Shown here: positions 30,990-38,860 of the stretch, in pieces
Numbering within the stretch: the stretch's first letter is position 1
Layout: each line of letters opens with the position of its first letter
NCBI GenBank assembly: GCA_947167745.1
Contig: CAMVJE010000004.1
Span: 1-64,000, forward strand
Direction of reading: 5' to 3'
DNA: 64,000 nt
Source: an uncultured Treponema sp.
GTDB taxonomy: Bacteria; Spirochaetota; Spirochaetia; Treponematales; Treponemataceae
The notes under the pieces: model-generated
Told to the model about the DNA's origin: nothing
Databases searched by the model: none
The model's input: only the letters and a program-made list of their open reading frames with translations
Position numbers and translations under genes: made by a program

Positions 30990-31916
30990 ATGACAATCAC
31001 ACTTAAAAACAGCAACTACGAAGTAGTTATCAGCACGCACGGAGCAGAAATCAATTCTTTCCGCAGCGTTAAAGACGGCACAAAATATGTATTTGAAGGC
31101 CCGGAGGAAGTCTGGAAATTCCACGCACCGGTTTTGTTCCCCCATGTAGGCCGTATTAAGGACGGATTCTACACTTACGGCGACAAGGAATATCATCTTG
31201 TGAACAACGGAATGAGCCGTGACATGGAGCACAAAATCATCGAGCAGAGCGAAACTTCGGCAACTTTTGAGCTTACCGAAAATGCCGAGACTGCCGACAA
31301 GTTCCCATGGAAATTCAGCCTCAAGACTCATTATGAGCTCAAAGAAAACGGCCTTATTTTTACAACGACCGTAACTAACACAGATTCAACACCGATGCTT
31401 TTCTCTGTCGGAAGCCACACTGCTTTCTGCTGCCCTCGCAACACAGACCCAAAAGGCACGACAAATGCTGACTATCAGTACGAATTCGAGCAGAGAGAGC
31501 CTCTGACCACGGTTTGCCTCAACGATGCGGCTCAGCTTGCCGTTGATGAAGAAGGAACAGCCCCATGCACAAAGCCTTACGGCGAAAAAGAAGCCGGAAT
31601 CATCCCGATTAACGCTGACGGATTCGGTAACGGCCACTTCTTCACTGCTTTCAAGTCAAACTGGGTAGGCTTGCGAAACAAAAAAGATGGTTCTCTGATT
31701 AAAGTAAACTGTGCCGGCTATCCTTACCTTATGGTATGGCAGGGTGGAAACGGAGCGGCCGGAGCTGACGGAAACGGCTTTAACTGCATTGAGCCGTGGT
31801 ACGGAACAGCTGATGCCGAGAACACTGAGCATGAGTGGGAAGAAAAAGCGGCTCTCATTACTCTGGAGCCGGGAAAATCTTTCACTGCTGACCAGAGCAT
31901 TACTATTGAACGCTAA
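30990..31916 (+). CDS. Aldose 1-epimerase-family protein
   Basis: 308 residues, cytoplasmic (no signal peptide). The opening EVVISTHGAEINSFRSVKDG and the WKFHAPVLFPHVGRIKDG segment match the galactose mutarotase-like family of LacX type; SVGSHTAFCCP holds a probable active-site histidine, and the C-terminal IEPWYGTAD the acidic catalytic residue. It interconverts sugar anomers. The promoter lies close to the start (GATACA nine bases before the ATG), with no Shine-Dalgarno sequence. Confidence 0.9.
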   Translation: MTITLKNSNYEVVISTHGAEINSFRSVKDGTKYVFEGPEEVWKFHAPVLFPHVGRIKDGFYTYGDKEYHLVNNGMSRDMEHKIIEQSETSATFELTENAETADKFPWKFSLKTHYELKENGLIFTTTVTNTDSTPMLFSVGSHTAFCCPRNTDPKGTTNADYQYEFEQREPLTTVCLNDAAQLAVDEEGTAPCTKPYGEKEAGIIPINADGFGNGHFFTAFKSNWVGLRNKKDGSLIKVNCAGYPYLMVWQGGNGAAGADGNGFNCIEPWYGTADAENTEHEWEEKAALITLEPGKSFTADQSITIER

Positions 31917-32007
31917 GCGTTAGGGGCTGTAGCACCGAAGTATCGAAGATATGGAGCGATGAGCGGAAGTGCGAAAGACCCGACCCCGCGAAAGCGGGGA
32001 AACGCCC
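31917..32007. repeat. G+C-rich dispersed repeat before metK
   Basis: Contains GGGGCTGTAGCACCGAAG, GCGAAAGACCCGACCCCGC and hairpin CCCCGCGAAAGCGGGG, the same module as 8031-8062. It ends directly before the metK promoter. Confidence 0.7.
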
Positions 32008-32036
32008 TTGTTTTTTCAATTTATTTGTATTATATT
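32008..32036 (+). promoter_or_regulatory. Promoter of metK
   Basis: TTGTTT (32008-32013) and TATATT (32031-32036) with a 17-base spacer; a second candidate -10 TATTAT overlaps at 32028. It places the start of the transcript about 20 bases before the riboswitch. Confidence 0.5.
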
Positions 32037-32060
32037 TTCACTAACAAACAGTCTAAATCT

Positions 32061-32130
32061 CCCGTCGATTTATCCAAATTGCAGGCGGGGTCGCTTCGTA
32101 TGAGGCGGCAAAATCTTGCTAAATAGGAGG
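32061..32130 (+). ncRNA. SAM-II-like riboswitch before metK
   Basis: P1 is CCCGTC (32061-32066) with GGCGGG (32084-32089), six pairs with one G-T. Loop L1 is the 17-base GATTTATCCAAATTGCA (32067-32083), which agrees with the known SAM-II loop (GATTTAACCGTATTGCA) at 14 of 17 positions and in length. An extra 8-bp hairpin, GTCGCTTC/GAGGCGGC with GTAT loop (32090-32109), is inserted in L3. Then come AAAATCTT, the SAM-II core GCTAAA (32118-32123) and AGGAGG, the metK ribosome binding site. In SAM-II the CC of L1 pairs with G residues just after GCUAAA, which here lie in the Shine-Dalgarno sequence, so SAM binding should block translation. The comparison sequence is recalled from the alphaproteobacterial metX/metA type. 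Confidence 0.85.
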
Positions 32131-32136
32131 CTCAAA

Positions 32137-33321
32137 ATGAGCGCTATCTTATCTAACAATCACTATCTTTTTACATCTGAGTCAGTAAGCGAAGGTCATC
32201 CTGACAAACTCTGTGATCAGGTTTCTGACGCAATTCTCGATGCTTGTCTTGCGGCTGATCCTCAGTCACATGTCGCATGCGAAACTTATGCAACTACAGG
32301 CATGGTTCTTGTTGGCGGCGAAATCACTACCCACGCTGATGTTGATTTCCAGAAAGTCGTCCGCGATGTAGTCCGCGACATCGGCTACACGAACGAAGAT
32401 TACGGAATTTCTGCTGACACAATGGCTGTTTTGAACACAATCCACAATCAGTCGCCTGACATCAATCAGGGTGTCGTTGGAACAGGTCTCAAAGAGTACG
32501 AAGGTCAGCAGGGAGCAGGGGACCAGGGAATCATGTTCGGTTTTGCCACAAATGAAACTCCTGAGTACATGCCGGCAACTCTTGTTTATGCCCACAAAAT
32601 CCTCAAAAGAGCGGCAGAGCTTCGCAAGAACGGCACAATCAAATGGCTTCGTCCGGATTCAAAGTCTCAGGTCACAATCGAATACGACGAGAATCACAAG
32701 CCGGTGCGAATCGATGCAGTTGTCGTAAGCCATCAGCACAATCCTGATGTTGAATACGACACAATCAAAAAGACAATCATCGACGAGATTATCAAGCCTG
32801 TCCTTGAACCAACAGGTTTGCTCGACAGCGAGACAAAATACTACATCAATCCGACTGGCCGCTTCGTTGTTGGCGGTCCGCACGGTGATGCCGGTTTGAC
32901 TGGCCGAAAAATCATCGTTGACACTTACGGTGGAGCAGGTCGTCACGGTGGCGGAGCTTTCTCTGGCAAAGATCCTTCAAAAGTTGACCGCTCGGCTGCC
33001 TACATGGCACGTTACATTGCAAAGAACATCGTTGCGGCAGGGCTGGCTGACAGGGCAGAAATTCAGCTTTCTTACGCAATCGGCGTTCCCCACCCGGTTT
33101 CAATCATGGTTGAGACATTCGGCACGGGAAAAGTCGAGAACGCAAAAATCGTCGAGGCTGTAAAAAAAGTCTTCGATTGCTCTCCGGCCGGAATCGAAAA
33201 GACCCTGGATTTGCGAAAGCCAATCTACCGTGCCACCAGCAATTACGGTCACTTTGGTCGCGAGGGCTTTAGCTGGGAAAGAACCGACAAGGTTGAAGAA
33301 TTGAAAAAGGCAGTGAAATAA
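32137..33321 (+). CDS. metK: S-adenosylmethionine synthetase
   Basis: 394 residues from ATG 32137, the usual length. Preceded by AGGAGG, which lies in the riboswitch. Motifs: [20 protein letters not shown] at the N-terminus, the [13 protein letters not shown]-binding loop, [20 protein letters not shown], and [16 protein letters not shown]. It makes SAM from methionine and ATP in the cytoplasm. A terminator follows 9 bases after the stop. Confidence 0.98.
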
Positions 33322-33359: not shown

Positions 33360-33431
33360 GCGGTTGTCATATAACGGCTATTATCCGGGCTTCCCAAGCC
33401 CGAGACGCGGGTCCGACTCCCGTCAACCGCT
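33360..33431 (+). tRNA. tRNA-Gly(CCC)
   Basis: A 72-base cloverleaf. Acceptor GCGGTTG/CAACCGC, a short D-stem ATA/TAT, anticodon stem CGGGC/GCCCG with loop TTCCCAA and anticodon CCC, T-stem GCGGG/CCCGT with loop TCCGACT, discriminator T. The T-loop has C where T55 is normal. CCA is not encoded. It starts immediately after the metK terminator and ends 4 bases before the ATG of the next gene. Confidence 0.85.
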
Positions 33432-38089: not shown

Positions 38090-38167
38090 TTTCAAAATTC
38101 ATTTAAATTTCCTGTAATCTGCGTTACAATTTTTGAATAGAATTGTTTTCTTAACAAGGAGTTTTAA

Positions 38168-38860
38168 ATGAAAAAAATCGTTTTAGGAATGTCCGCAATT
38201 ATCGCGGCGGCTTTGTTTTTGAGTTGTGGTTCTACAAAGAACGCTGTAAATATCACTTCTCAGAATGTTAAAATTGAGAGGGTTGACTGGCAGGGTGCAA
38301 GCACTGGATCAATGCCTCCGGCTTGGCTTGAGGCTGTCACTTCTGGCGATGTCGAAGAAGTTGCAAAAGCCCTCAATGTAGATTCAAAACAGTACAAGGT
38401 TTTCGTTATCAGCAATTCTGGCCCAAATCTTGACTTCCTCAAAACATGGACAGACAATGTTGACGCCGTTTCAGAAGTTTCTGGTTCAATGAGCCGTGTC
38501 GTAGGACAGTCAGTTCAGGCAAATATGACTGGTACAACCGAAGAAGTCCAGAAAAATGTCGATCAGGCAGTAAAAGTTGCTTCAAGTGTTGAACTTATCG
38601 GCCTCGAAAAAAAGGCTTCTTATTGGGTAAAAACCCGCCGCGTAAAAACAGGAGTTACCGAGCCAAAATATGATTCTGACTATGAGCCTTCTGTTTACAC
38701 ATACTATGTCGTTTACATTATGTCAAACGAAGTATTTGACCGCTCATTGCGATCTTCTATGGACCGCGGAATTTCTGAAAATACAGAAAATGCAAGTCTT
38801 CTCAAACAGTTGATTACTGCAAGCCTCGCAAAAACAATCATCCCTGGATATTCGGAGTAA
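38168..38860 (+). CDS. Lipoprotein of unknown function (first of four)
   Basis: 230 residues. Signal peptide MKKIVLGMSAIIAAALFLSC with lipobox LSC at about residue 20. The mature domain contains MPPAWLEAVTSGDVEEVAKA, which resembles the opening of LPP20-type domains, and a later ELIGLEKKASYWVKT strand. AAGGAG precedes the ATG. It opens a four-gene lipoprotein operon, with only 3 bases to the next gene. The neighbours suggest it works in the same envelope complex. Confidence 0.8.
   Translation: MKKIVLGMSAIIAAALFLSCGSTKNAVNITSQNVKIERVDWQGASTGSMPPAWLEAVTSGDVEEVAKALNVDSKQYKVFVISNSGPNLDFLKTWTDNVDAVSEVSGSMSRVVGQSVQANMTGTTEEVQKNVDQAVKVASSVELIGLEKKASYWVKTRRVKTGVTEPKYDSDYEPSVYTYYVVYIMSNEVFDRSLRSSMDRGISENTENASLLKQLITASLAKTIIPGYSE

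Follow-up and report, generated by a model that had tools for sequence, protein, structure and literature searches.

A predicted SAM-II-type riboswitch with an added hairpin in the metK leader of Treponema

The metK leader and its elements

The window analysed here is a stretch of 64,000 nucleotides from an uncultured Treponema sp. (contig CAMVJE010000004.1). It carries the metK gene, which codes for S-adenosylmethionine (SAM) synthetase and is preceded by a leader with the following elements, read from the sequence:

31984..32016, forward strand: terminator-like hairpin CCCCGC GAAA GCGGGG with a T run further on (31990-32015 in the consensus scan)
32061..32066, forward strand: 5' strand of stem P1, CCCGTC (also supported by P1 covariation over 81 distinct aligned leaders)
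32067..32083, forward strand: L1 core GATTTATCCAAATTGCA, 17 nt, with the third strand GATTTA, the P2a partner UCC (32073-32075) and the P2b strand TTGC (32079-32082)
32084..32089, forward strand: 3' strand of P1, GGCGGG (also supported by P1 covariation)
32090-32097/32102-32109, forward strand: P3 hairpin within L3, strands GTCGCTTC/GAGGCGGC, loop GTAT at 32098-32101
32110..32117, forward strand: A-rich linker AAAATCTT, 3' of P3
32118..32123, forward strand: 3' core GCTAAA
32125..32130, forward strand: Shine-Dalgarno sequence AGGAGG, of which GG(A) at 32126-32128 is the predicted P2a partner of UCC at 32073-32075
32137..33321 (stop included), forward strand: metK, S-adenosylmethionine synthetase, 394 codons, start ATG at 32137

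The MetK protein of the window shares 96% identity with its counterpart in a Treponema assembly from goat abomasum (L001; query residues 3-394) and 97.7% with the MetK of locus L154, in keeping with a gut-type Treponema. The terminator-like hairpin sits 3' of the upstream gene and parts that gene from the metK leader. The only leader site flagged by the consensus scan was GCTCAAAATGAGC (32130-32142); it overlaps the start codon, and the bases after it are GCTATCTTAT and no T run. The scan found no promoter-like site on the forward strand of 31880-32200. Two tRNA genes were also seen in the window, at 1611-1684 and at 33360-33431 (both forward), the latter just 3' of metK.

The initial annotation had described P1, the GATTTATCCAAATTGCA loop and GCTAAA, and all of them were present where it had placed them. 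It had also put GCTAAA directly before the Shine-Dalgarno sequence of metK; the two are indeed neighbours, but a single T separates them, and AGGAGG ends 6 bases 5' of the ATG. Numbered by the last digits of the coordinates, the 3' core would pair through G118-C82, C119-G81, A121-T80 and A122-T79, with T120 bulged. P3 consists of 8 pairs, 2 of which are G-U. When the window RNA is folded to minimum energy with pseudoknots excluded, the Shine-Dalgarno sequence pairs in another way. The proposed agreement of the loop with the metX SAM-II aptamer that was crystallised presumably amounts to 14 of 17 positions.

Conservation of the leader RNA in treponemes

The core pattern of the leader was found in 15 of 80 metK loci; all 15 were among the 32 spirochaete-titled loci and none among the 48 others. 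It was absent from T. lecithinolyticum (L008), from a T. denticola-labelled locus (L020) and from two Treponema assemblies (L004 and L005). The metK leaders of the last two have in common an alternative G+C-rich stretch, GGCGGACGCGCTCGC..GCCCGCC. Locus L025 holds the metK leader of T. bryantii, a cultured rumen Treponema.

Three covariance models were then used. R1 was built from seven of the 15 metK leaders with the window left out, and it matched the window at 32059-32130 with 69.3 bits (E 2.5e-14 over 385 kb). At E<=0.0098 it recovered the 15 loci, seven of which are its training set, as well as the window, and the best match outside the element had an E-value of 0.18. Over 196 genomes of the genus of L007, 134 were matched by R1 at E<=1, a threshold loose enough to let in chance matches. 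R2 was built from three leaders with a downstream sigma-70-like gene (L121, L140 and L149) and matched the leader with 39.5 bits (E 7.2e-10); its sequences are disjoint from those of R1, yet they were found through R1, which makes the check not fully independent. The E-values of R2 are optimistic, because a second match in the window (38108-38178), AT-rich and chance-looking, reaches E 0.0013.

R3 was built from 88 leaders. At E<=0.01, it matched 138 of 274 genomes of one Treponema family, many of which carry training leaders, so that this is a presence count and no blind test, and 31 of 296 genomes drawn across the phylum. Among 47 non-spirochaete genomes, there were no matches at E<=0.01 and three at E<=0.1. 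The scans of the family and the phylum scored 17-18 first-look candidates per genome and may miss true members, and some of the tallied hits with E 0.001-0.01 are chance matches, such as L122, L234 and L244. Weak model hits that by eye had no core or were unconvincing (L122-L124, L126-L130, L132, L133, L198, L199, L201-L211, L234 and L244) were rejected.

The 88 matches correspond to 83 distinct leaders, which gave 81 distinct rows in the model-fitted alignment. The ORF that follows has a MetK-type start in 81 of the 83 leaders by pattern, and the gene at L018 is metK by tblastn, which brings the count to 82; the leader at L134 precedes a 126-aa ORF without a Pfam match. The distance from GCTAA to the start codon is 17-22 nt (81 leaders).

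P1 and P3 both covary. In P1, 465 of 498 pairs form, compared with 399.7 +/- 5.0 when the 3' strands were reshuffled among the sequences (maximum 417 in 1000 shuffles). Changes on both sides were seen at 13 of 19 pairs of the 81-row alignment, including all six pairs of P1, where the initial annotation had called for covariation in other treponemes, and all seven modelled pairs of P3. Double changes occurred in 290 cells against 89.6 after shuffling, in an alignment that was fitted to P1 and P3 and favours both. When the alignment was slid as a control, the paired share dropped from 95.9% to 39-52%.

The extra 8-bp hairpin at 32090-32109 is real, and "inserted" was a fair word for it, as 8 of the 83 treponeme-type leaders have an L3 of just 4-10 nt past P1, too short for P3, and the related elements L227 and L229-L233 have no room for it either. 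An uninterrupted P3 stem of at least 6 pairs was found in 52 of the 75 leaders with a long L3, compared with a mean of 19.1 for dinucleotide-shuffled sequences (maximum 27 in 100 shuffles). Among the 83 leaders, 30 carry GUAU and 3 carry GUAC as the loop of their best stem, and the stem itself varies freely. Outside the elements, GUAU closes 2 of 476 tetraloop hairpins with a stem of at least 7 pairs (335 kb of sampled spirochaete loci). The GUAU/GUAC loop thus appears selected, though relatedness inflates the counts, and the recurrent tetraloop (32098-32101 in the window) perhaps makes a tertiary contact.

GATTTA is present in 76 of the 83 parsed leaders and TTGC in all 83, but TTGC was a parsing requirement. 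The six pairs of P2 can form in 96-100% of the cells of the 81 rows and are nearly invariant, without any compensatory change; in P2b, 96.3% of the cells are paired, again with no compensatory change. The two C-G pairs of P2a are kept in all 81 rows, with U-G at one pair in one row. The pseudoknot part of the proposed covariation check thus met P2 pairs that hardly vary among the treponeme leaders. As P2 is near-invariant within the group, the pseudoknot rests on homology, and covariation gives it neither support nor contradiction. In a set of 31 diverse sequences, P2a complementarity exceeded chance only modestly, at 104 against 95.4 +/- 4.3 (70 of 2000 shuffles were as high); in L277 (CUUAC/GUAAG) and L275 (UCAC/GUGA), P2a appears to have changed in a compensatory way. 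Strong covariation of the pseudoknot was found neither in the 81-row alignment nor in the 31 diverse sequences.

The leader is a conserved RNA in which P1 and P3 are held by covariation, the L1 and GCUAAA cores are those of SAM-II, and the 3' core overlaps the Shine-Dalgarno sequence.

Relation to SAM-II and other SAM riboswitches

The initial annotation had proposed a search with the Rfam SAM-II and SAM-V models, and this was negative for the window. At the gathering score, Rfam 15 matched only two tRNAs in the full window and no SAM-II, SAM-V or long-loop SAM-II RNA, and no SAM family matched the region 31900-32300 even at E<=10. The 15 element-bearing metK loci likewise gave no SAM match at E<=10. 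Neither RF01726 (up to 150 first-look candidates scored per genome) nor RF00521 (up to 118) exceeded its cut-off in any of the 15 genomes G001-G015. Among the sub-cut-off matches of RF01726 in these genomes, six of eight loci were inspected (L081-L086), and none was the motif. Among 392 spirochaete genomes, four had an RF00521 match over the cut-off, as did one (G209) of 26 chosen genomes. Because the Rfam gathering score is not reached in the window and its 15 sister loci, we place the leader next to RF00521 as a variant and do not count it within RF00521 as delimited by Rfam; the gathering score is a detection limit and not a structural definition.

The connection to the family runs through intermediates. 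Locus L232 scored 31.9 bits with R3 and 45.2 bits with Rfam SAM_alpha, the cut-off of which is 36. At other places found by R3, SAM_alpha stayed below its cut-off (L233, 25.9; L227, 24.5; L229, 22.8; L230, 22.4), and five of the ten R3-related loci scanned by Rfam had no SAM match (L226, L228, L231, L239 and L240). Four rhizobial SAM-II plasmid loci were used as a positive control, one of them before metA and one before an O-succinylhomoserine sulfhydrylase gene; Rfam scored their aptamers at 73-86.7 bits. With its filters off, R3 placed the true aptamers of three of these loci in register as its three best hits in 12.2 kb, with weak scores of 11.7, 10.9 and 9.9 bits (E 0.06-0.18). The next hit had 4.1 bits, and the fourth aptamer was missed. 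Judged from sequence comparison, this chain of models shows the treponeme metK leaders to be homologous, through intermediates, to the SAM-II RNAs of Rfam, and the proposal of a SAM-II-like element before metK was largely right.

Twenty-one RF00521 places were inspected in spirochaetes, 16 with the core pattern and 5 without. Six of the places lie before MetK-type ORFs (L276, L278, L279, L281, L288 and L289), of which two coincide with the L233 and L227 elements. The element of L233 stands directly 5' of metK and that of L227 about 100 nt 5' of it, neither with P3, and the element of L226 lies some distance 5' of a MetK start. As the L227 and L226 elements are distant from metK, the tight overlap with the Shine-Dalgarno sequence is a treponeme feature and not a general one. 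The RF00521 place at L273 is followed by a protein start that we take, by eye, to be that of an S-adenosylhomocysteine (SAH) hydrolase.

The window leader resembles SAM-II (RF00521, SAM_alpha, the metA motif) in its predicted H-type pseudoknot, P1, L1 GAUUU...UUGCA, 3' GCUAAA and a target in the SAM/methionine pathway. It differs in having an L1 of 17 nt, compared with 21 in the RF00521 consensus line, a P2a of 2-3 bp, P3 within L3 and metK as the target, and in lying beneath Rfam detection. SAM-II is described as having no P3 in the part of the SAM-V structural study that we consulted (PMC6061858), whereas the window has P3 at 32090-32109. With SAM-V (RF01826), as presented in the same part of that study, it shares P3, the A-rich linker past P3, a 2-bp P2a involving the Shine-Dalgarno sequence and translational control (PMC6061858), while the lengths of P1 and P2 differ and the window has no SAM_V match. 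According to PMC2864571, RF01726, the SAM-II RNAs with long loops, occurs in Bacteroidetes and in marine samples. It is like the leader in its SAM-II core, longer loops and occurrence outside Alphaproteobacteria, and unlike it in that its consensus, aaGAUUUGACUGAUUGCA...AUGCUAAAgCAG, differs in L1 and P2a and in that the window and its 15 sister loci were not matched. The folds of SAM-I, SAM-III (SMK box), SAM/SAH and SAM-Chlorobi riboswitches differ from the SAM-II type, and their Rfam models did not match the window. What these classes have in common with the leader is SAM-type control of metK, as given in the consulted part of a survey (PMC4239095).

The traits shared with SAM-V, namely the P3 hairpin, the short P2a overlapping the Shine-Dalgarno sequence and translational control, are described for that class in the text available to us (PMC6061858) and raise the question whether the leader is a relative of SAM-V or of long-loop SAM-II (RF01726) and not of RF00521, which would alter the label alone and leave the superfamily and the mechanism the same. 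Scores below the cut-off point the same way at some loci: SAM_V gave 30.2 bits at L230 and 23.6 at L229, in both cases above SAM_alpha, and RF01726 gave 24.3 at L232. However, the 6-bp P1 and the L1 GATTT..TTGC together with GCTAAA are SAM-II-like, the sole SAM match over a cut-off among the scanned R3 loci is that of SAM_alpha at L232, and it is SAM_alpha that exceeds its cut-off in the four spirochaete genomes. We therefore regard the other label as rather unlikely and keep the leader as a divergent SAM-II variant.

Predicted control by SAM and elements before other genes

Taken together, the metK leader can be read, with a probability of about 0.88, as a spirochaetal variant of the SAM-II-type riboswitch that carries an extra P3 and turns metK off in cis at the level of translation. 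Transcriptional control looks unlikely, because the 3' end of the aptamer sits on the Shine-Dalgarno sequence, six bases before the ATG.

The proposed mechanism draws on related RNAs, each known to us from part of the respective paper. The founding metA motif was shown by Corbino and colleagues to bind SAM with a Kd near 1 uM, and mutations in P2 abolished and then rescued its response to SAM (PMC1273637). In the SAM-V crystal, SAM lies in the major-groove triplex of P2, with its sulfonium opposite a U:A.U triple, its adenine paired to a U and its amino-acid end held by an A; when SAM binds, a 2-bp P2a closes, of which the Shine-Dalgarno sequence is a part (PMC6061858). The same paper presents the metX SAM-II aptamer as a rare example of translational control, also with a 2-bp P2a including the Shine-Dalgarno sequence (PMC6061858). 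The corresponding SAM-holding positions T70, T80-A121, T120 and A123 are present in the window, according to our own mapping from the SAM-V numbering (PMC6061858, consulted in part).

At low SAM, P1 and P2b would be formed, while the GAUUUA third strand and P2a would stay loose; the Shine-Dalgarno sequence would be open and metK translated. At high SAM, the ligand would settle in the P2 triplex, with its adenine at U120, its sulfonium at the U70.A121-U80 triple and, by analogy, its amino-acid end at A123. The P2a pairs between UCC (32073-75) and GGA (32126-128) would then close and keep ribosomes off. The linker AAAATCTT may make A-minor contacts to P1, as the part of the SAM-V study at hand describes for that RNA (PMC6061858). 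SAM would thereby limit its own synthesis, and with ample product the cell would probably turn its synthetase off.

Alternatively, a leader of SAM-II fold could sense a different compound, for instance SAH or a precursor, or respond to SAM and SAH alike. U10 is G in 5 of the 83 leaders, the positions that we take to be G17 and U18 of the crystallised aptamer are A in the window, and some spirochaete members sit before non-methionine genes. Against this, the target is metK in 82 of the 83 leaders, and the presumed SAH hydrolase gene at L273 fits SAM control too. SAM/SAH riboswitches before metK bind both compounds, as stated in the part of PMC2864571 consulted, but by our mapping the residues that hold SAM (the U:A.U triple, the bulged U and the A; PMC6061858, also consulted in part) are kept, and we find a different ligand improbable. 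Least probable, with hardly any weight, is that the leader is no ligand sensor and acts as a protein-binding or temperature-sensitive leader or as an autoregulatory site for the MetK protein: the Shine-Dalgarno sequence can pair in simple hairpins too, and SAM sensing is here a prediction, but L1 and GCUAAA are conserved past the need of a simple hairpin and agree with the Rfam SAM-II consensus line, and some members precede genes unrelated to metK.

SAM-II-like elements were found before sigma-70-like genes in at least five treponeme genomes, with the L1 GATTTAACTCTACTTGC, GATTTGGCTCTTATTGC or GATTTGATCCTGCTTGC:

L240, 2509-2580, reverse strand: element directly before the sigma gene (genome of L001)
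L239, 2802-2872, reverse strand: element directly before the sigma gene
L242, 821-891, forward strand: element followed by a short ORF, with the sigma gene further on
L243, 2849-2919, reverse strand: element followed by a short ORF, with the sigma gene further on
L263, 4913-4982, forward strand: element followed by a short ORF, with the sigma gene further on

The proteins of L239, L240, L242 and L243 contain Sigma70_r2 over its cut-off, and that of L263 was judged by similarity. Rfam did not flag the sigma-factor leaders; the lone RF01726 match, in L140, had 18.9 bits and lay on the opposite strand. The element of L241 stands before an ORF without a Pfam match.

Further elements were noted at other genes. 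In genome G089, a 66-aa ORF and a WYL-domain protein are preceded by two elements in tandem, and an AAA ATPase by a further one:

L237, 1926-1976 and 2145-2210, reverse strand: elements of G089
L238, 1876-1926, reverse strand: element of G089

We considered but do not claim that the WYL and AAA copies act in defence, the IteA score being 74 against a cut-off of 510. Two serial SAM-II-like elements of L255 (1375-1432 and 1595-1648, forward strand) precede a 225-aa ORF without a Pfam match. SAM-II-like elements of L236 (391-440, forward strand) and L285 are found ahead of an N-formylglutamate amidohydrolase gene, assigned by Pfam in L236 and by eye in L285. At L269-L272, SAM-II matches over the Rfam cut-off stand before small ORFs of 129-145 aa, and the ORFs of L270-L272 look alike by eye.

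A separate leader of about 45 nt, GGCTGTTTTATAGCACCTACTTAGCAGCCATAAAAAATAAAGGGGGC, is identical in 4 of 196 genomes (L264, L265, L266 and L267, around 1490-1540). It lies directly before sigma-like genes (judged by eye in L267), the proteins of which differ, and is possibly another regulatory RNA. By eye it resembles preQ1-I, but Rfam gave no convincing match in L264-L266, and this assignment is not claimed.

In the literature searched, outside which lay most subscription papers and all supplements, we found no report of a SAM-II-type switch in spirochaetes and nothing on rumen Treponema together with riboswitches; SAM-II and Treponema were linked solely through a reference, and the co-occurrence of SAM-II-like and "spirochaet" was incidental. 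The portions examined of the literature on SAM-II and metK do not place SAM-II before metK, and the consulted part of the survey (PMC4239095) does not name metK as a target of SAM_alpha. Database listings may already record SAM-II for the phylum, given the few spirochaete genomes that Rfam flags.

The metK-leader RNA would thus be a divergent, hairpin-bearing SAM-II variant with a wider reach than the initial annotation could see. By uniting the SAM-II core with a SAM-V-like P3, it offers a natural set for asking what role P3 and its GUAU loop play. On a more tentative reading, suggested by the gene neighbourhoods, a seemingly unreported spirochaete lineage of SAM-II might extend beyond methionine metabolism, with sigma-70 factors and further regulators under its control besides metK; SAM would then be a global signal, and a small aptamer could switch whole regulons. 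If it is true that the sigma-factor copies bind SAM, SAM would be a transcription-wide signal in these gut bacteria.
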